Assembly (NCBI RefSeq): GCF_002127225.1
Contig: NZ_NFUR01000002.1
Location: 496,001-560,000 of the forward strand
Length of the DNA stretch: 64,000 nt
From: Sphingomonas sp. IBVSS2
GTDB taxonomy: Bacteria; Pseudomonadota; Alphaproteobacteria; Sphingomonadales; Sphingomonadaceae
Direction of reading: 5' to 3'
The stretch's first letter is position 1, and each line of letters starts with the position of its first letter. Positions 1-8,090 of this stretch are shown piece by piece. The position numbers and the translations under genes were made by a program. The notes under the pieces are model-generated. The model saw nothing but the letters and a program-made list of their open reading frames with translations, was not told where the DNA came from and did not search any database.

Positions 1-272
1 AGCTGGCGCGGGTATCGGAGCAGATGCTGTCGCGCGCGACGCTCTCCGCGGCGGGGCGAGTGCACGAGGAACTGCTTCGCCTGGCGGCAACGGCGGACGG
101 CATGACGATCGCGCCGGCGCCGATACTCTCCGAACTGGCCGCGCGCGTCTACACCACGCGCGAGACGGTGTCGCGCGCCGTCAGCGCGCTCGAACGGCGC
201 GGCATCGTGCGGCGCGACGCAGATGCCCTGGTGATCGTCGCCCCGGCGCGGCTGGCCGATATGGTGATCTAG
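1..272 (+). CDS. Crp/Fnr-family transcriptional regulator, C-terminal part (5' end outside window)
   Basis: The open frame enters from the left edge (codons in phase with base 3) and ends with TAG at 270-272. Only about 90 residues are visible. They contain a winged helix-turn-helix of Crp/Fnr type: SELAARVYTTRETVSRAVSAL is the recognition-helix region, where TTRETVSR is the family signature, followed by the wing ERRGIVRRD. The cyclic-nucleotide-binding half lies upstream and cannot be assessed. The gene converges on the TIR operon with a 4-base overlap of stop codons (269-272), so the two are transcribed toward each other. The ligand cannot be inferred. Confidence 0.8.
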   Translation, partial: LARVSEQMLSRATLSAAGRVHEELLRLAATADGMTIAPAPILSELAARVYTTRETVSRAVSALERRGIVRRDADALVIVAPARLADMVI

Positions 273-1849
273 GGGCCGTATCCGCGCAGGGCATGAAGGG
301 AGAGGGTGGTTCCCGGCAGCTCTCCGATCGGCTCCAGGCGGGTGCTCTCGTCCGCCCCCGTGCTCGCGGCAAGGGCCGCACCGAGGAACTCGGAGAAATA
401 GACCGCCGTCGAAGGGGTGACATCGAGTATCCGGTCGATGCGGCGGGCTGCGGAGCCCAGCACCAGCGTGCCGCCTCCGAAGGGGGCGGGCACGATCCGC
501 AGGGCGCCGAGATCGCCGGCGATGCGCACCGGGCCAGCTTCGGCGAGTGCGGTGCGGAGCCGGGCCGCGTCGGCGGCGGCTTCGCGGGCAGATCCATAGT
601 GGAGCACGACGCCGTCCGCGCGCCAGGCGGGCGGGGCGATCAGGCCGATCGGCTCGGGCAGTGCCGCCAGCCGTTCGGCGATCCGATCCGCCGCGGTCTC
701 GTCGTCCGGCCCGCAGAGGCTGATCGCGACCATGGCGACCAGTTGCGGGGCGCCTGTCGTGCCGTCCGGTGCCGCGGCACCGGCAGGGACCCGGCCCGCG
801 TCCAGCACATGTTGCGGCCGGCCGGTCGCCGCCCAGCTCCGCGCGAGGCGTGCGCTGTTCGGGGCCGCCGGTGCGCCTTGCGATATCTCGCTGACGATCA
901 GTTGCACGGCCCGCGTCTGCAACTGCCGGGCGCGCATCACCGCGCCGCCCATGGCGAGCGCGTCGGCAAGTTCGCCGGTCAGCGCGGGGTCGGCGTCGCG
1001 CTCCTCGCCGATCTCGCGCACCGTTGCCGCCTGCGCCAAGATGGCTTCGAAGCGCCCGGCATCGCCTTCAAAGGCTTCGACCGACCGGTGGAGAAACGTC
1101 GTGCGATCGCAGGGCAGGGTGACGTGCAGTTCCGCGCCGCGCGCGAGCAGCCGCTCGGCGATCAGCATGTCGGCCCCGGCGGCGAGCGAGCCATGGCCGA
1201 AGCCGATATTCTCGGCCGCCAGCACGCTGTCGATCGTGGCTGCCTGTGCGGCGGCGTCGTCGATCCGCATCTGTCCGGCATAGTGCAGCGTGCGCGGCGG
1301 GCGATAGGCATCGAGCCAGGCGGGATCGAGCGCCAGCTCGGCGAGGATCGTGGCGAACTGGCGCAGCGTGGAGGCATGATCCTCCCAGGCACGCGGCGCC
1401 CGCCCGATGGCGGCGCGGAGCGCGGCCTCCGCCGCCGCGCGCTTGCCGCCGAGCAGCAGCGCCTCGGCACGGGTCGCTTCGAGATAATAGGGCGTGTCGG
1501 GCTCGCCGGTGCCGGCATCGAGCAGCGCGAGCGCCTCGTCCGCCAGGCGCCGGGCCGCATCGCGGTCTCCCGCGATCAGCGACAGCGTCGCCGCGTTGAT
1601 CAGCGGGTAGGTTGCCGGGCGAAGCCGCGCGGCGGCGGCATAGGCGTCCGCGGCGCGGGCGGCGGCCTCGCGCCGGGCCGCGCCGGCCAGGCCCAGCGCG
1701 CGGTCCTTGCGCAGCCGGCCGTGCAGGGCGAGCACGGCCGGATCGTCGCCGACCCGATCGAGCCCCGCGGAGCGGAAGAGCCGCCATGCCAGCTCCTCCG
1801 CCCCGGACCGCGCCAGTGCCGTGATCGAAAGCAGCGTCGGCGTCATCAT
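269..1849 (-). CDS. TPR protein with SLOG-like and degenerate class III cyclase-like domains
   Basis: A 526-residue soluble protein without signal peptide. Residues about 40-190 are alanine-rich helical TPR-like repeats. Residues about 217-252 carry GSLAAGADMLIAERLLARG followed by ELHVTLP, a Rossmann-type glycine/AGAD loop resembling nucleotide-binding SLOG/LOG-like domains that accompany TPRs and cyclases in other alphaproteobacteria. Residues about 365-500 resemble a class III nucleotide cyclase (DGVVLHYGSAREA, then GSAARRIDRI, then VYFSE), but where cyclases have their first metal-binding Asp the sequence reads VAMVAISL, so catalysis looks lost. It is the last gene of the operon, 18 bases after the 201-aa gene. 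Domain names are pattern matches by eye; function is unknown. Confidence 0.6.
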   Translation of the reverse strand: MMTPTLLSITALARSGAEELAWRLFRSAGLDRVGDDPAVLALHGRLRKDRALGLAGAARREAAARAADAYAAAARLRPATYPLINAATLSLIAGDRDAARRLADEALALLDAGTGEPDTPYYLEATRAEALLLGGKRAAAEAALRAAIGRAPRAWEDHASTLRQFATILAELALDPAWLDAYRPPRTLHYAGQMRIDDAAAQAATIDSVLAAENIGFGHGSLAAGADMLIAERLLARGAELHVTLPCDRTTFLHRSVEAFEGDAGRFEAILAQAATVREIGEERDADPALTGELADALAMGGAVMRARQLQTRAVQLIVSEISQGAPAAPNSARLARSWAATGRPQHVLDAGRVPAGAAAPDGTTGAPQLVAMVAISLCGPDDETAADRIAERLAALPEPIGLIAPPAWRADGVVLHYGSAREAAADAARLRTALAEAGPVRIAGDLGALRIVPAPFGGGTLVLGSAARRIDRILDVTPSTAVYFSEFLGAALAASTGADESTRLEPIGELPGTTLSLHALRGYGP

Positions 1850-1867
1850 ATGGGTGCGCGCATCGGG

Positions 1868-2473
1868 CTATCGGCCTCCGTTTCCGCGATTCTCCACATC
1901 GGGATCGATGATCACCGGCAGGCGGCGGATGACGGTGCCGTCCCGCGCACGCTCGACGAAGTCGACATGGAGATTGAAGCCATGCTTCACGCCGATCCCG
2001 CTCGCGTCCCATAGCCGGAGCGGCGTCCGGGCGCAGAAGGAGACCGCCGAGATCCGGTCGTCGCCGTGGCGGCTATGGGTTCGCAGATTATAGTAGCGGG
2101 CATTGGCATGCTGCTGCTTGGTCGTGACGGCGTCCTCGCGCGCGAATTCCCAGAATTCCCCCTCGAGCCGGATGACGACATAGCATTTGTAGACGAGCCC
2201 GAAATCTAGCGGGCCGTCCACGGGCTCTACCGCCGGCGGGTTTCGCCCGATGAAGCCGCTTATCGCGGCCTGTATCGCTTCCGGGCTCGCGCCGACATTG
2301 GCGCCGGCGCCGTCTTCGCCATCGTCATAATATCGCGGAACGAATTGCAGCGCCTGGACCACCGGCGCGGTTGCGCCGTCCTTGCCGGTGATCGCTTCGA
2401 GTTGAATGGATATCTTCTTGACGTGCGCGATGTCGGGTTCGGGATCGCCTTCCGGTAGTTCGAAGAAATTCAT
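1868..2473 (-). CDS. Hypothetical protein, middle gene of TIR operon
   Basis: A 201-residue acidic protein starting MNFFELPEGDPEPD. No family is recognised. It has no signal peptide or membrane segment and looks like a single mixed alpha/beta domain: an N-terminal strand region (KKISIQLEAI), a glycine/aspartate-rich loop (YYDDGEDG), a central hydrophobic strand (GLVYKCYVVIRLEGEFWEF) and a C-terminal strand pair (FNLHVDFVE, RRLPVIIDPD). Its ATG overlaps the TGA of the TIR gene (ATGA at 2470-2473), so the two are probably translationally coupled. It is 18 bases upstream of the TPR/SLOG-like gene. The tight packing argues that all three products act together. Confidence 0.6.
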   Translation of the reverse strand: MNFFELPEGDPEPDIAHVKKISIQLEAITGKDGATAPVVQALQFVPRYYDDGEDGAGANVGASPEAIQAAISGFIGRNPPAVEPVDGPLDFGLVYKCYVVIRLEGEFWEFAREDAVTTKQQHANARYYNLRTHSRHGDDRISAVSFCARTPLRLWDASGIGVKHGFNLHVDFVERARDGTVIRRLPVIIDPDVENRGNGGR

Positions 2474-4038
2474 CGTCTTTCTCCCTCTCTGGTACGCGCC
2501 TCACTCAGTTCCTGCTTCATTTCGGCCAGCGTCTGCGCGAGGCTGCGATTGGCGGGGTCCCCGGCGACGATCGCCTCCAGATCGTGGATCGCCTGTGCCA
2601 GCCGCGCCTCGCCGCGTGCGACGGCGCCCGTCTCCAGTTCGATCAGGCCGAGCGCGCGCTGCGACCAGATGCGCTTGCGGCGCAGCTGGGCATTGGCGGG
2701 GTCCGCGTGGAGCAGATCCTCGATGATCGCCGCCTCGCGGTCGCGGTGCCGCCGGGCCGCGGCGGGATCGTGGAGGCGATGGAAATAGACGTCGGCGACC
2801 CAGGCGTGCCGGTTGGCGAGGCCGCGCAGCGCGTCGGCGTCGCCGGGCCGCATCGCCGCGACGCGCTCCATCGCCCGCAGCGCCCGCATGCACAGGTCGA
2901 GCAATCCGTCGGTGCGGCGCATGTCGTAGCGGGCACTGCACAGGCTGCCATTGGCGTAGGCGACTTCCTGCAGGCTGCGCGCATCGCCCGGCGCGACGGT
3001 CGCCAGCCGATCGGCGAGCGCGATATAGGCCTGGAACGCGGCTTCCGCGCCACCCGGATCTCGCCGCTTGATCGCCAGGTCGCCGATCCAGAACTCGCTC
3101 TGCGCATGAGTGAAGAGCATCTCGGGATCGTCCGGCATCCGCGCGAGCAGCGCGCCGGTGGTGCGACGCGCTTCGGCGAATGCGGCGGCGGCGGCCGCAT
3201 CGTCCTTGCGGTCGAGATCGTCTTCGCCGATCGCGTGCAGGATGCGGGCGCGCCGGGCCAGGGCATCGGGCGGCAGCTCGGCAAGATCCTGGGCGGAATA
3301 ATAGGCCAGCGTGCGCCGGTTGGCGGCGGTGAGCACGTCGAGGCGGTTCACCGCCTTCAAGCGCTCGCGGAGATCGGTTTGCATGAACTCGACCAGCCCT
3401 TCCGCGGCCTGACGCCGCTGTTCCGCTTCGTGCCGCGCGCGAATCGCAACGACGCTCGACGCCGTCAGCGCTAGCAGGGCGATCAGCGCCGCGACCGTGA
3501 CGGCCGTCACGCGCCGCAGCCGGCGCTGGGCATCGCGTTGGACGAGCTCGCCGAGCGGCAGGCCGGCCAGGCCGGCGAGCAGCTTGAGCAGGCCGAGCCG
3601 GCGCCCGTCGCCCCGGGCGCGGAAGTCCGCCGCCAGCGGTTCATTGTCGCCGGCCCGGGCGAGCGCGGGAAATGCCGCATCGGGTTCACCGTCGACAAGG
3701 GCGAGCAGGAGCGGCGCGTGGGGATGCGCCGCGCGGAATGCGGCGATCTCGCGCGCGACCCAGGGCGAGGCGGCCGCCGCGGGCGAGCAGACGACGATGA
3801 GCGCCTCGGACGCCGCGATCGCCCGGGTCACGGCATCGCTGAGGCTGGTCGCCGCGGCGAATTCCTCCCGATCGCGGAAGATCGGCCCGAGCCGCGCCGG
3901 AACCGGGCCGAGCGGCCCCGGCCTGCCGATCAGCCGGCGGGGGAAGCGATAGGATTCGAGCTTCCGGTGCAGCCAGCGCGCGATCTTCGCGTCGCGATGG
4001 CTGTAGCTGATGAACGCGCGATAGCGTTCCCCGGTCAT
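2470..4038 (-). CDS. TIR-domain protein with one membrane segment and C-terminal TPR region
   Basis: 522 residues in three parts. Residues 8-130 form a TIR domain: AFISYSHRD at 8-16 is the first strand and box 1, IFRDREEF at 53-60 the BB-loop region, and SPWVAREI at 91-98 places Glu97 where NAD-cleaving TIR enzymes have their catalytic Glu in an S-x-W-x-x-x-E motif. Residues about 178-199 are a hydrophobic segment (VAALIALLALTASSVVAI), predicted transmembrane. Residues about 250-515 are TPR-like helical repeats. It opens a three-gene operon that starts about 75 bases from tRNA-Thr. NAD hydrolase or cyclase activity is inferred from the motif only; a scaffold role is possible. Confidence 0.8.
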   Translation of the reverse strand: MTGERYRAFISYSHRDAKIARWLHRKLESYRFPRRLIGRPGPLGPVPARLGPIFRDREEFAAATSLSDAVTRAIAASEALIVVCSPAAAASPWVAREIAAFRAAHPHAPLLLALVDGEPDAAFPALARAGDNEPLAADFRARGDGRRLGLLKLLAGLAGLPLGELVQRDAQRRLRRVTAVTVAALIALLALTASSVVAIRARHEAEQRRQAAEGLVEFMQTDLRERLKAVNRLDVLTAANRRTLAYYSAQDLAELPPDALARRARILHAIGEDDLDRKDDAAAAAAFAEARRTTGALLARMPDDPEMLFTHAQSEFWIGDLAIKRRDPGGAEAAFQAYIALADRLATVAPGDARSLQEVAYANGSLCSARYDMRRTDGLLDLCMRALRAMERVAAMRPGDADALRGLANRHAWVADVYFHRLHDPAAARRHRDREAAIIEDLLHADPANAQLRRKRIWSQRALGLIELETGAVARGEARLAQAIHDLEAIVAGDPANRSLAQTLAEMKQELSEARTREGERR

Positions 4039-4111: not shown

Positions 4112-4187
4112 TGGTGCCGAGTGCAGGGATCGAACCCGCGACCTTCGGTTTACAAAACCGCTGCTCTACCAGCTGAGCTAACCCGGC
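4112..4187 (-). tRNA. tRNA-Thr (anticodon TGT)
   Basis: The minus strand folds as a cloverleaf. The acceptor GCCGGGT pairs with ACTCGGC (one G-T pair), the D arm is GCTCAGCTGGTAGAGC, the anticodon loop TTTGTAA gives anticodon TGT, the T arm is GCGGG-TTCGATC-CCTGC, and CCA is encoded at the 3' end (4112-4114). The outermost anticodon-stem pair is a G-A mismatch. The 3' end faces the TIR operon. Confidence 0.95.
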
Positions 4188-4261
4188 ACCTGCCCGAAAC
4201 CCGCGACGATCCGCAGGTCGCCCGCCCCTTGGTCGGCTTCGCCCGGGCGGTCAAGGCCGAA

Positions 4262-4615
4262 CTATGCCGAGCCGATGGGCGCGGGGCGAGTGACGATCCA
4301 CAGCGCGCAGGCGGCCATCGCCGCCGCGACGCCGAGCGCCAGCCCGGCATGGGGGCGCACCGAGATCCAGAACAGCCCATAGCCCAGTGCGATGCCGGCA
4401 AAGGCCGCGATCTTGCCGCGACGCGGAATCGCGCCTTGCTCGCGCCATTGCCGGATCGGCGGGCCGATCCCGGGATGATCGAGCAGCCAGGCCTCGAGGC
4501 GGGTGGAGCCGCGGGCGAAGCAGCCCGCCGCCAGGATCAGGAAGATCGTGGTCGGCATCACGGGCAGCAATGCGCCGATCACGCCCAGCGCGACGAAGAA
4601 GAAGCCGAGCGCCAC
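4262..4615 (-). CDS. YbaN/DUF454-type small inner-membrane protein
   Basis: At least 117 residues with a DUF454-like pattern: a first membrane helix (ALGFFFVALGVIGALLP), the family signature PTTIFLILAAGCFARGS, a soluble loop with WLLDHPGIGPPIRQWREQG, and two further hydrophobic segments at about 65-108. The GTG at 4615 is a convenient start, but the frame stays open to 4690 and reads ARLFWVALGF across it. Family members usually begin a few residues before this helix, so translation may start upstream at a CTG (4681 or 4624). Function of the family is unknown. It is followed by tRNA-Thr. Confidence 0.75.
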   Translation of the reverse strand: MALGFFFVALGVIGALLPVMPTTIFLILAAGCFARGSTRLEAWLLDHPGIGPPIRQWREQGAIPRRGKIAAFAGIALGYGLFWISVRPHAGLALGVAAAMAACALWIVTRPAPIGSA

Positions 4616-4761
4616 CCAGAACAGGCGCGCCGCGCGGCTGGCGAGGCGCGGCTCAGGCGAGATGGCGGGAGCCCCGGGCAGCGGCGGGAATCATGCGGTT
4701 CTCCTTGGCGCGAGGCGGCAGGGTGGCGTGCGCCGGGGCCGGCGTCCAGCCCCCGCGCGTA

Positions 4762-5574
4762 TCAGTGGCGGCTGGCATGGCGTTCCGCCATGTAGCGGCC
4801 GGGCGAAGTGCCCAGTGCCTTGCGGAACATGGTCACGAAACTCGGCACGCTCTCATAGCCGAGATCGGCCGCGACCTGCTGGATCGAAGCGCCGCCCGCC
4901 AGCCACTTGATCGCGAGCATCACGCCCAGCTGCTGGCGCCAGCGGCCGAAGCTCATGCCGGTCTCGCGATGGATCAGCCGGGCGAGCGTGCGCTCGCCCA
5001 GGCCGGCGCGGCGGGCCCAGGCATCGAGCGTCCCGCGCTCGGCCGGCGCGGCCATCATCAGGTCGACCACCCGGCGGAGGCGGGCATCGGTGGGCATGGG
5101 GAGGTGAAGATCCTCGATCCGGGCCGCGGCGATCTCGTCGAGCAGGACCGAGACCAGCCGGGCATTGGCGCCGCTCTCCTCGTAGAGGACGGGCAGGACC
5201 GCGGCGCGGGCGAGCAGCTCGCGGAGCAGCGGGCTGACCGAGAGGGCGCAGCAGCTTGCGGGGAGGCCCGCCTCGGTGTCCGGGGCGATAAAGGCGTTAT
5301 AGCCTTCCAGCGCCCCCGTCGCCTTGACCGAATGGAGGGCGCCGCCGGGAATCCAGATGGCGCTGCGCGGCGGGACGATCCACAGGCCGCCGTCCACCTC
5401 GCAGCTCAGCGCGCCGCGCTGGGCCAGGATGATCTGGCCCTTGGCATGGCGATGCGGGGCGAGTTCGAAGCTGCCGAACGCCTCGGTGATGAAGCCATAG
5501 GTGACGACCGGGCGAGGCACCTCGTCCGGATCCATCCAGCCGTTATCGTCGCCAATTTCATTCAGGATGGGCAT
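4762..5574 (-). CDS. AraC-family transcriptional regulator
   Basis: 270 residues. An N-terminal cupin-like sensor half (about 25-110; the HRHAKGQIILAQRG pattern is typical of AraC-binding cupins) precedes a double helix-turn-helix at about 170-265, with GASIQQVAADLGYESVPSFVTMFRK-type spacing and the GTSPGRYM terminal signature. It is divergent from the siderophore-interacting protein gene, about 160 bases away, with a Fur-box-like palindrome in between. Cupin-type AraC proteins in this position often control the adjacent transporter or reductase gene; that link is inference. The effector is unknown. Confidence 0.85.
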   Translation of the reverse strand: MPILNEIGDDNGWMDPDEVPRPVVTYGFITEAFGSFELAPHRHAKGQIILAQRGALSCEVDGGLWIVPPRSAIWIPGGALHSVKATGALEGYNAFIAPDTEAGLPASCCALSVSPLLRELLARAAVLPVLYEESGANARLVSVLLDEIAAARIEDLHLPMPTDARLRRVVDLMMAAPAERGTLDAWARRAGLGERTLARLIHRETGMSFGRWRQQLGVMLAIKWLAGGASIQQVAADLGYESVPSFVTMFRKALGTSPGRYMAERHASRH

Positions 5575-5636
5575 GCCTGCCTCCGCGCTGATTGGCAGAA
5601 TTCGATAATATTCTGTCCATGCTTCGCAATGACGAC

Positions 5637-5655
5637 AATAATGCGAGCCATTATC
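5637..5655. promoter_or_regulatory. Fur-box-like operator
   Basis: The inverted repeat ATAATG-N5-CATTAT at 5638-5654, plus a C at 5655, matches 14 of 19 positions of the classical Fur consensus GATAATGATAATCATTATC. It lies between the divergent AraC regulator and the siderophore-interacting protein, 83 bases before the latter's ATG, which fits iron control of the ferric reductase. Binding is inferred. Confidence 0.55.
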
Positions 5656-5737
5656 AGTTGTTTCCGAACCCGTCGAGCCCGGAAAGGTGGCGCGAGCGGC
5701 GGGGCCGTGACCAGGAATTCAGCGTGAGGACCGTGTG

Positions 5738-6484
5738 ATGCTGCCGATCGAATCGCCCGAACGTCCCGTGGCCAAGGCGCCTGGCCGGCTTGGCCAGGCG
5801 TTGATCCGGCTGCTGATGAAGCGCGCGACCGTGACCGCCAGCGAGCGACTCGCCCGGGGCTTCCGGCTGATCACCCTGGAGGGGCCGGCGCTGGAAGGCG
5901 TCGCCTGGACGCCGGGGCAGAAGATCCAGATCGCCATGGGCTCGGCGTTCACGGCGCGGACCTACACGCCGATCGAATGGAACCCGGGGACCGGGCGTGC
6001 CTGTATCCTGGGCCATGTGCATGGCGACGGGCCGGGCAGCTTATGGGTGCGCGACGCGGCGCCGGGCGACATGTGCGACATTTTCGGGCCCCGCGGCTCG
6101 CTCGATGCCGGCCGGATGCACGGCCCGCTGGCGGTGTTCGGCGACGAGACCTCGATCGGCCTTGCCCATGCGCTTGCCTATCAGGACCCCGGGCGCATGG
6201 TTGCCGGCTATTTCGAGGTTGGCGACGTGGAGGGCAGTTGCCGGGTGGCCGAGCAACTGGGCCTCGACCGCGTCGCGCTGTTCGCAAGGGCGGCGGGCGA
6301 CGCGCATGTCGGCGAGATGGAAGTGCGGCTTGCGACGCTGGCGGCCGGCGGCACCGGCTTCGTGCTGACCGGCAAGGCGGGCACCGTCCAGCGGCTCCGC
6401 CAGCGGCTGAAGCGGCTGGCGGTGCCGGCGAGCCGGATCGCGGCCAAGGCCTATTGGGCGCCGGGCAAGACCGGGCTCGACTAG
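5738..6484 (+). CDS. Siderophore-interacting protein (FAD/NAD(P)H ferric-siderophore reductase)
   Basis: 248 residues from the ATG at 5738, chosen over the in-frame GTG at 5735 because GAGGA (5726-5730) sits 7 bases ahead of it. An N-terminal FAD-binding barrel carries RTYTP at 74-78, the R-x-Y-T flavin-contact motif of ferredoxin-reductase-like folds, followed by a C-terminal SIP/NAD(P)H domain ending in KAYWAPGK, close to the usual YWRxG end. Such cytoplasmic enzymes release iron from imported ferric siderophores by reduction. The putative Fur box upstream and the TonB receptors nearby fit that role. Confidence 0.85.
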   Translation: MLPIESPERPVAKAPGRLGQALIRLLMKRATVTASERLARGFRLITLEGPALEGVAWTPGQKIQIAMGSAFTARTYTPIEWNPGTGRACILGHVHGDGPGSLWVRDAAPGDMCDIFGPRGSLDAGRMHGPLAVFGDETSIGLAHALAYQDPGRMVAGYFEVGDVEGSCRVAEQLGLDRVALFARAAGDAHVGEMEVRLATLAAGGTGFVLTGKAGTVQRLRQRLKRLAVPASRIAAKAYWAPGKTGLD

Positions 6485-6509
6485 CGCCCGGCGCGCACCG
6501 GGGTTGTGC

Positions 6510-8090
6510 CTAGCGCTCGAGCTTCTCCAGCTGCCGTTTCGCATTGGCGTTGTTCGGATCCAGCGCGAGCGATCGCCGATAGTCGCGGATCGCGGCTTCC
6601 CGGTTGCCGGCGCGGGCATGCCCTTCGCCCAGGCTGTCCCAGGCATTGGCGTCCCCCGGATAGAGCGCGGCGTTGCGCTCGAAGACGCGGAGCGCGTCGG
6701 CGATCTGGTTCTGGCGGAGCAGGCGGTAGCCGAGCAGGTTGAGGATCGACGGATCGTCCTTCCCGTTCCGCGTGCGATCATAGTGCGCCAGCGCCGCATC
6801 CACGCCCCGCCGGGCGGCGACGACGAGAAGCAGATCGCCGGCGCGGGGCGCGCGGACCGGATACTGCCAGCCCTGGGCATCGCCGACGACCTTCATGATG
6901 CGCTCGTAGATGGCGGAGAAGCTGTCCGAATTGCCGAGCAGGGCGATGCCCCAGCCCTTGTCCGCATCCATGAACATCAGCGCCTGGAAGCCTTCGTTCG
7001 CGCCGTTGTGACGGAACTGGCCAGGATGGTCGCCATAGCCGACGCCGAAACCCAGCCCGATGCCGCCGGGCTTGCCGGGATCGTCTGGGCAGTGGGGCGT
7101 GAGCATCTCGCGCGTCATCGCCTGCGACAGGACATGGTTGGCCTTGCCTTCGCGGGAGAGCGACACTTCGATGCCCAGCCGGGCAAGGTCCTCGGCGGTG
7201 GTCCACAGGCCATCGGGAGCAAGTTCGGGATAGACATGCCATTTGCCCGGGGTGACGGCGCCGTCGGGCCCGGTGCCGCTGGCGGCGCGCGCGGCCAGTT
7301 CCGGGGGCAGGGCCTGGGCGAAGCTGCTGCTCGTCATCCCGGCCGGACGCAGGACCCGCGCGGCCATGAAATCCTCGAACGACTGGTCCGCCGCCTCGCG
7401 GATCATCAGTCCCTCGATCGTCACGCCGCCGCCCGAATAGAGGCATTGGGTGCCGGGCTCCACGGTCACGCGGACCGCCGGGCTGTTGGCGGGCGGCTTG
7501 CCGTCGAGGATCTGCTCGATGCCCGGCACCGCCATGCCCTGCGCATAGCCGGCAAAGCCATGGACGTTCAGGCCGGCATTGTGGCTCATCAGCCGGCGCA
7601 GCGTGACTTTCCGGGTGGCGGCGAGCGGGCTCTCCGGCAGTTTCCAGCCTTTGAGCAGGGTGTTCACATCGGCATCGAGCGAGAGCTTGCCCCGCTCCAC
7701 CAGCCACAGCGCACCCATCGCGGTGACCGGCTTGCTGATCGAAGCGGCCTGGAACAGCGTGGCGGGGGTGACCGCAGTAGCGCCGCCGGCCTCGGTCACC
7801 CCGAACCCGGCCGAGAAGGCGATGCGATTGTCCTTCACCACCGCGACGCTCATGCCCGGCACGCGAAAGGCCTGCATCAGCTCTGCCAGCGTCACGACGA
7901 GCGGCGGCTCGCCGGGCGCCATGTCGATGGTCAGCATCACGGTTTCGGGCGTGAGCAGCGGGGCCTGTTGGGCCTGGGCCTGGGCGGAGGTGGCCGTCGC
8001 GAGAAGGACCAGGGCGGCACCGGGGATGGTGACGGATAGAGGGAGGGCCAATGGCGTGAGGGAGCGCAGGACTCGGTCTATCAATTGCAT
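6510..8090 (-). CDS. Secreted serine hydrolase of beta-lactamase/PBP fold with C-terminal TPRs
   Basis: 526 residues: a signal peptide (cleavage near AQAQA, about residue 40), then a class C beta-lactamase-like domain at about 60-400. The nucleophile motif S117-I-S-K120 is S-x-x-K; Y218-S-G occupies the Y-x-N position with Gly in place of Asn; HNGANEG stands where KTG is expected (H-x-G is common in esterase-like members). Residues about 425-525 are two or more TPRs (NLLGYRLLRQNQIADALRVF; WDSLGEGHARAGNREAAIRDY). Its ATG overlaps the TonB-receptor stop (TGATG). It is the last gene of the BlaI/BlaR1-like operon. It may be a peptidase or esterase rather than a true beta-lactamase. Confidence 0.85.
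   Translation of the reverse strand: MQLIDRVLRSLTPLALPLSVTIPGAALVLLATATSAQAQAQQAPLLTPETVMLTIDMAPGEPPLVVTLAELMQAFRVPGMSVAVVKDNRIAFSAGFGVTEAGGATAVTPATLFQAASISKPVTAMGALWLVERGKLSLDADVNTLLKGWKLPESPLAATRKVTLRRLMSHNAGLNVHGFAGYAQGMAVPGIEQILDGKPPANSPAVRVTVEPGTQCLYSGGGVTIEGLMIREAADQSFEDFMAARVLRPAGMTSSSFAQALPPELAARAASGTGPDGAVTPGKWHVYPELAPDGLWTTAEDLARLGIEVSLSREGKANHVLSQAMTREMLTPHCPDDPGKPGGIGLGFGVGYGDHPGQFRHNGANEGFQALMFMDADKGWGIALLGNSDSFSAIYERIMKVVGDAQGWQYPVRAPRAGDLLLVVAARRGVDAALAHYDRTRNGKDDPSILNLLGYRLLRQNQIADALRVFERNAALYPGDANAWDSLGEGHARAGNREAAIRDYRRSLALDPNNANAKRQLEKLER

Follow-up and report, generated by a model that had tools for sequence, protein, structure and literature searches.

The window analysed here, a stretch of 64,000 nucleotides from a contig of Sphingomonas sp. 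IBVSS2 (NZ_NFUR01000002.1, positions 496,001 to 560,000), carries at its left end a compact cluster of minus-strand genes which encode a TIR-TM-TPR protein of 522 residues, built of a TIR domain, a transmembrane (TM) segment and a TPR part, a middle protein of 201 residues, and a third protein of 526 residues combining a TPR-S region, a SLOG domain and a degenerate nucleotidyl cyclase domain. The three open reading frames (ORFs), with their 4-base overlap, their 18-base gap and the adjoining tRNA-Thr gene, lie where an earlier note on this DNA had placed them. That note had considered them a three-gene operon, but a convergent gene for a Crp/Fnr-type regulator has to be counted as a fourth member, since it accompanies the third gene also in loci devoid of the other two. 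The module had also been thought previously undescribed and its middle gene unknown, whereas both signature families are already named in Pfam: the middle protein belongs to PF20301 pNTSase1 (expectation value E 3.3e-49, 167.3 bits against a cut-off of 25) and residues 10-90 of the third protein to PF20308 TPR-S (40.6 bits against a cut-off of 27.6). NCBIfam yielded matches below cut-off only. The reading developed below, to which a probability of roughly one half is given, is that the four genes form a chromosomal module that converts a membrane stimulus into a change of transcription, via a messenger derived from nicotinamide adenine dinucleotide (NAD).

Conservation of the four-gene set

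Gene neighbourhoods were surveyed in a set of 28 loci found via pNTSase1 and in a set of 80 loci found via the third gene (loci are designated by L and a number), which share some genomes and whose counts are not independent samples. In the 28 pNTSase1 loci and the window, searched with profiles iterated on the same ORFs, a TIR gene occurs upstream in 29 of 29 cases (cut by the contig end in L031), and the third gene occurs downstream in 28 of the 29, L048 being devoid of it; the gene-neighbourhood survey suggested by the earlier note thus confirms that the trio occurs together, more often than by chance. The third-gene set was kept from at least 155 confirmed stretches in named genomes. It contains a TIR-TM-TPR relative in 63 of its 80 loci. 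The other 17 comprise six loci with at most 605 bases upstream (L078, L097, L105, L114, L117 and L119), among which L117 keeps the middle gene, and 11 loci with more than 5 kb upstream and neither a TIR nor a middle gene.

The Crp gene of the window, on the plus strand, begins with a TTG start 379 bases to the left of the window (C2:495622 on its own contig) and ends at window position 272, so that more than half of it lies outside the window, and it overlaps the 3' end of the third gene by 4 bases. Its product of 216 residues matches PF00027 cNMP_binding (E 2e-11) and PF13545 HTH_Crp_2 (E 3e-10), and at least 90% of 78 sequences keep a cysteine, Cys13, close to the N terminus. A convergent Crp gene is located within 500 bases of the 3' end of the third gene in 71 of the 80 third-gene loci and in 19 of the 27 pNTSase1-found loci holding a third gene. 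Of the 11 loci that have neither a TIR nor a middle gene within more than 5 kb of upstream sequence, 10 retain this Crp gene, which makes the sensor-Crp pair look like the core of the module and the TIR-middle pair like an attachment to it. General synteny was rejected as the cause of this neighbourhood: when 782 other neighbouring ORFs were clustered, the commonest other family reached 7 of 108 loci, in a control that is rough since ORFs were called by a simple rule of length and third-codon-position GC content (GC3).

As to distribution, PF20301 is present in 4 of 398 genomes sampled across the phylum and in 26 of 397 from the family (own genome counted in both), and the middle protein of the window finds a match in 3 of 61 genomes, one of them its own. 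The third-gene profile is found in 20 of 151 genomes of the same genus, 14 of them (own included) at E below 1e-100. Where the genus is named, the third-gene loci belong to genera of the Sphingomonadales and Caulobacterales, together with one Kordiimonas, and several come from metagenome-assembled genomes placed to class or phylum; among the matches listed, the closest third protein is that of Sphingomonas leidyi DSM 4733, 92% identical. Viral or plasmid carriage was rejected, because neither plasmids nor phages yielded a match to the middle protein, and viral contigs yielded no confirmed relative of the third gene.

A few loci show other arrangements. The gene order is permuted in L088 and L091, with the TIR-TM-TPR gene beyond Crp rather than upstream of the third gene; a second gene of the TIR-TM-TPR family occurs near the module in a Kordiimonas genome (L136:10533-13046); and a different TIR-like protein of 637 residues, TIR by eye, is encoded at L125:9953-11863 near a pair of third gene and Crp devoid of its own TIR gene. 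Genes resembling kdpDE (named by eye) precede the Crp gene in the window (1-272) and in L059, and a kdpD-like gene, again named by eye, is also found beside Crp in L060 (S. leidyi), L064, L065 and L072. The tRNA-Thr gene was set aside as a functional or integration-site partner; its adjacency was seen again only in L060 of S. leidyi among 12 loci scanned, and looks incidental.

Table 1. Features at the left end of the window, with positions counted from its first nucleotide.
Feature	Position	Strand	Basis or remark
TIR-TM-TPR protein, 522 residues	2470..4038	minus	ORF and Pfam matches
TIR domain, residues 9-126	3661..4014	minus	Pfam; predicted catalytic Glu97 at 3748-3750
TM, juxtamembrane and TPR module of the TIR protein	2473..3522	minus	Common to receptors preceding DP-EP genes
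Middle protein, 201 residues, Pfam pNTSase1	1868..2473	minus	Predicted SO1698/DP-EP-like beta sandwich
DPxxxN tail motif D190-P191-D192-V193-E194-N195 of the middle protein	1889..1906	minus	Family alignment
Third (sensor) protein, 526 residues: TPR-S, SLOG and degenerate cyclase domain	269..1849	minus	Pfam, AF2 model, structural alignment
TPR-S region, residues 1-183 of the third protein	1301..1849	minus	PF20308 on residues 10-90; helices in the model
SLOG (YpsA-type) domain, residues 184-352 of the third protein	794..1300	minus	Structural alignment and invariant residues
Class III nucleotidyl cyclase homology domain, residues 364-526, degenerate	272..760	minus	Ser at metal-Asp 1
Crp/Fnr-type regulator, 3' part	1..272	plus	Pfam; convergent with the operon
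tRNA-Thr(tgt)	4112-4187	minus	

The TIR protein and the sensor

The 522-residue protein is matched by PF13676 TIR_2 (E 8.6e-13) and by PF08937 ThsB_TIR (E 1.4e-6, 29.1 bits against a cut-off of 21.2), which bears out the TIR assignment of the earlier note; a search of the PDB by phmmer with the TIR domain alone gave no match at E 0.1. Conservation of Glu97 in relatives had been set beforehand as a test, and in an alignment of 80 distinct long homologues, retained from 97 profile hits, Glu97 is kept in all 79 that are readable at this position, the remaining one ending before it. Judged from its sequence, the domain possesses the conserved glutamate of catalytic TIR NADases, and it may cleave NAD. 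The TM stretch, read by eye, occupies approximately residues 177-199, and the TM-TPR module has no second copy in the genome of the window, its sole match there at an E threshold of 0.001 being itself.

The third protein was modelled with AlphaFold2 (AF2) on 58 sequences, with a predicted local distance difference test score (pLDDT) of 91.6 and a predicted template modelling score (pTM) of 0.91. In this model, residues 184-352 form a Rossmannoid domain of the YpsA-type SLOG fold, which superimposes on YpsA (2nx2) with a Z of 16.7 and a root-mean-square deviation (rmsd) of 2.6 over 149 of 178 residues, as the earlier note had anticipated in proposing a SLOG-like Rossmann pocket; unlike in YpsA, the SLOG domain lies here between TPR-S and a cyclase-like domain. 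Residues G192, G220, L222, G225, D227, P246, F252 and S256 are present in all 81 rows of the alignment. According to PMC9503650, the YpsA-like clade of SLOG domains includes sensors of cyclic ADP-ribose (cADPR).

Residues 364-526 match class III cyclases, e.g., Rv1264 (Z 19.1) and Rv1900c (Z 18.2), and do so by Foldseek and by sequence as well. The degenerate cyclase recognized earlier is corroborated: the first metal-binding Asp is replaced by Ser in the window protein, and only 6 of 81 rows have Asp at both metal positions; by eye, no other part of the third protein varies as much as this domain. Since the SLOG residues are invariant and the cyclase metal sites mostly incomplete, the sensor part is strongly constrained, and the cyclase part appears to be in decay. 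The third-gene homologue at L105:72-1787 has a class III cyclase domain that looks intact (Guanylate_cyc, E 1.2e-8), and perhaps represents the ancestral, undecayed form. Neither Pfam nor the structural alignment revealed a SIR2 or another killer domain in the third protein.

The middle protein and the DP-EP family

At E values up to 1, the only Pfam family matched by the middle protein is PF20301, and not the DP-EP family PF08985; searching PDB sequences with the middle family yielded nothing useful, the one match being a ribosomal protein at E 0.7. The AF2 model, built on 46 sequences (pLDDT 84, pTM 0.82), is mostly made of beta structure, and its top Foldseek match is SO1698 of Shewanella oneidensis (probability 0.99), a protein whose family, DUF1888 in the literature, is now called DP-EP in Pfam. 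In the structural alignment by VIA-align, ten SO1698 entries are retrieved at Z 8.9-10.0, the top three rows (Z up to 10.0) showing an rmsd of 2.4-2.5 over 109-111 of 112-114 residues, and the next row after the PixA entries falls to 4.8. A DP-EP-like fold of the middle protein is thus likely, as far as a predicted model can tell. PixA itself was discarded as closest relative, being a more distant look-alike (4lzk Z 8.2, 4pib Z 6.9) with a WDPTI tail whose DP is out of register in the structural alignment. The mapping of Asp37 of SO1698, whose D37A form was deposited with a longer chain, was likewise abandoned; it has no clear equivalent in the window protein, and the position varies among six aligned DP-EP proteins.

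SO1698 is said (Osipiuk 2012) to cleave itself at Asp116-Pro117, and both families share the tail motif D-P-x-[IV]-x-N. In the middle family, D and P occur in 46/46 sequences, I or V in 40/46 and N in 38/46, the corresponding figures for DP-EP being 27/27 for D, 27/27 for P, 26/27 and 25/27. Besides Met1, D190 and P191 are the only invariant residues in the 46 middle sequences, whose mean identity of 18% is low enough for the alignment to hide others. Among the third-gene loci, all 45 middle genes detected behind a TIR gene encode a DP within the last 45 residues, which 101 of 782 neighbouring ORFs carry by chance. In the 16 loci with an upstream TIR but no detected middle gene, the gap between the TIR and third genes is filled by an ORF of 149-319 residues in 15 cases, L090 being broken, and a DP tail, settled by eye, is present in 10 of the 16. 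A GIHP-type stretch terminates the middle ORFs of L089, L092 and L111, and an IAHPP stretch that of L121; the L092 ORF has a DP located outside the motif. Two tandem middle-type genes (4255-4926 and 5125-5853) occur between the TIR and third genes of L075.

The DP-EP genes themselves offer a further comparison. PF08985 was found in 5 of 299 genomes, from three families, and all five loci (L149-L153) were examined together with 20 others (L186-L205), picked from 65 positive genomes out of 126 in one family and all belonging to one genus; the genomes examined fall outside the class of the window. In all 25 loci, the DP-EP gene lies behind a same-strand gene, some 810-1140 codons long, with a C-terminal part matching the TM-TPR module of the TIR family found in the window, the match running from hidden Markov model (HMM) positions 167-185 (259 in one case) to about 500, with E 2e-42 to 5e-54. 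The match spans the TM-TPR part only, which rules out that the DP-EP partner is a TIR protein, and the N-terminal part of the three partners scanned consists of a winged helix and an nSTAND1 NTPase. Compared with DP-EP, the middle protein thus resembles SO1698 in its predicted fold, in its DPx[IV]xN tail and in its place behind a TM-TPR receptor gene, but differs by the lack of any Pfam match between the two families, by the residue preceding the Asp-Pro pair by two positions, and by a receptor that carries TIR instead of a winged helix and nSTAND1.

Some particulars of the DP-EP loci are also worth recording. A PAS-GGDEF gene comes next in four of the first five (three checked by Pfam); L150 contains two tandem DP-EP genes (6309-6755 and 6700-7233), of which the second, by eye, encodes an N terminus resembling a signal peptide; several genomes of the family with the 65 positives hold additional DP-EP ORFs, in tandem and of greater length; and one DP-EP copy (L141) appears exported.

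The independent pairing of both proteins with TM-TPR receptors supports the idea that the middle protein plays the same part as DP-EP, next to a receptor of the same kind. A wider proposal, which is possible but tentative, would be that TM-TPR receptors of alphaproteobacteria and of other classes of the phylum pair with a self-cleaving Asp-Pro beta-sandwich protein, that their signalling head is exchangeable (a TIR NADase here, a winged helix and STAND NTPase behind DP-EP), that the receptor is switched when the tail is cleaved or exposed, and that in the TIR version an NAD-derived messenger is read by the TPR-S/SLOG protein, which controls transcription through Crp. If true, proteolytic and nucleotide signalling would be combined in one bacterial pathway, and the orphan DP-EP peptidases, on whose role no paper was found in the open-licence literature, would gain a biological setting.

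A proposed pathway and its competitors

In the pathway proposed for the four-gene module, the TPR part of the TIR protein and the DP-EP-like beta-sandwich protein would sense a stimulus, the invariant Asp-Pro tail possibly serving as the switch element, either by self-cleavage or by exposure of the tail. The TIR domain, with its conserved catalytic Glu, would then turn NAD+ into a messenger of the ADP-ribose type. This messenger or a related nucleotide may be bound by the YpsA-type SLOG domain predicted in the TPR-S protein, whose cyclase-like domain would be a remnant or a regulatory domain. Finally, the sensor would act through the convergent Crp/Fnr regulator, to which the gene neighbourhood shows it to be coupled.

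Several observations weigh against this pathway or parts of it. A single TM segment would place the TPR part of the TIR-TM-TPR protein outside the cytoplasm, whereas the middle protein, by eye, has no signal peptide. The distribution is patchy (the 14 strong hits in 151 genomes of the genus), and no convergent Crp gene lies within 500 bases in nine of the 80 third-gene loci (L082, L084, L085, L087, L098, L103, L110, L118 and L133; in L110, Crp is on the same strand as the third gene), nor in 8 of the 27 pNTSase1-found loci holding a third gene. Regarding the resemblance to DP-EP, the top Foldseek match has an E of 0.037 and none reaches 0.001, a Z of 10 stands modestly above the 7-8 that, according to the tool's own note, can be reached by models without a clear relative, and a profile-profile comparison of the two families by hhalign gives a probability of 3.5%; the structural alignment, moreover, sets D116-P117 of SO1698 on residues 191-192, one off the register of the motif. 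Five of the 16 undetected middle ORFs (L089, L092, L111, L121 and L136), which perhaps constitute a second class of middle protein, have no DP tail, the sixth being the broken L090. The Ser found at -2 from Asp-Pro in 26 of 27 DP-EP proteins is replaced by Ile in the window protein, and S or T occurs there in only 14 of 46 middle proteins; because this Ser is mostly absent, and because the S114A mutant of SO1698 was deposited with a longer chain, self-cleavage of the middle protein is doubtful.

Among the other explanations, a Thoeris-type anti-phage defence, in which the TIR protein would sense infection and make a cADPR-like messenger, and the SLOG domain of the third protein would bind it and kill or arrest the cell, is unlikely. 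The module resembles Thoeris (ThsA SIR2-SLOG and ThsB TIR) in uniting a TIR enzyme and a SLOG protein in one operon, the TIR being recognized by the ThsB_TIR profile, and both the patchy distribution and the fast divergence of the middle protein (mean column identity 18% versus 42% for the third protein) are in keeping with defence. The TIR of the window is nevertheless fused to TM-TPR, extra genes encode the beta sandwich and Crp, and the SLOG protein shows no ThsA-type effector (SIR2). In PADLOC, searched with these proteins and not with the flanking genes, no Thoeris model was matched, the middle and third proteins had no match, and the only match of the TIR protein was a weak SAVED-TIR (E 2.2e-4). 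The lack of matches to the middle protein in phages and plasmids and of confirmed third-gene relatives in viral contigs, the repeated occurrence at the same site beside a kdpD-like gene (in L060, L064, L065 and L072), and the identity of the best conserved partner, a regulator of transcription, also speak against defence.

It is quite improbable that the module is primarily a cyclase-Crp pair, in which the third protein would make a cyclic nucleotide for the neighbouring Crp to sense and the TIR and middle genes would be later regulatory additions. The occurrence of the third gene with Crp in loci without the other two genes and the intact-looking cyclase of L105 are in its favour. However, the metal sites, of which the window has lost the first, are complete in very few relatives, and the cyclase domain is the part that varies most. 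Pycsar (a pyrimidine cyclase with a cyclic-nucleotide receptor) likewise sets a cyclase-fold protein beside a cyclic-nucleotide-binding-domain protein; in the window, by contrast, the cyclase is not catalytically intact, having Ser at the first metal-Asp position, and the receptor is a DNA-binding Crp, whereas that of Pycsar is a TIR or TM effector. The third possibility, that the middle protein is a nucleotide synthetase making the messenger, with TPR-S as sensor and TIR as effector, follows the Pfam description of PF20301 ("predicted novel nucleotide synthetase"), its high score and the naming of TPR-S as a sensor, but can hardly be retained for a family whose low-identity alignment shows no invariant polar active-site set and whose predicted fold is nearest to the DP-EP and PixA beta sandwiches.

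The TPR-S and pNTSase1 conflict-system families reportedly originate from Burroughs and Aravind 2020 (J Bacteriol), the abstract of which is said to propose that a TPR scaffold recognizes NAD+-derived signals. The module of the window contains both domains and adds to them the SLOG domain with its degenerate cyclase tail, the convergent Crp and, for the middle protein, a DP-EP-like rather than a synthetase reading. In PMC8195603, Burroughs and Aravind 2020 is cited, among others, for the bacterial origins of parts of the ASK signalosome. PMC7159879 presents TIR domains that generate messengers in other conflict systems, and the terms TPR-S and CATRA are absent from it. Among the matches listed in the open-licence literature for the Pfam names, DP-EP and related terms, no paper deals with this operon; as far as those matches reach, what is new is the association with Crp, the interpretation of the middle protein as DP-EP-like, and the receptor module that both kinds of locus have in common.

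If the four genes do form a transcriptional signalling module, with the SLOG ligand, the action on Crp and the role of the Asp-Pro tail as surmised here, a database name that would mislead experiments, that of a nucleotide synthetase, would be corrected, and a setting would be offered for the self-cleaving DP-EP proteins. Signalling by TIR and SLOG through NAD would then be tied to a transcription factor and not to cell killing, and a non-lethal role of bacterial TIR-SLOG pairs would become directly testable by gene deletions.

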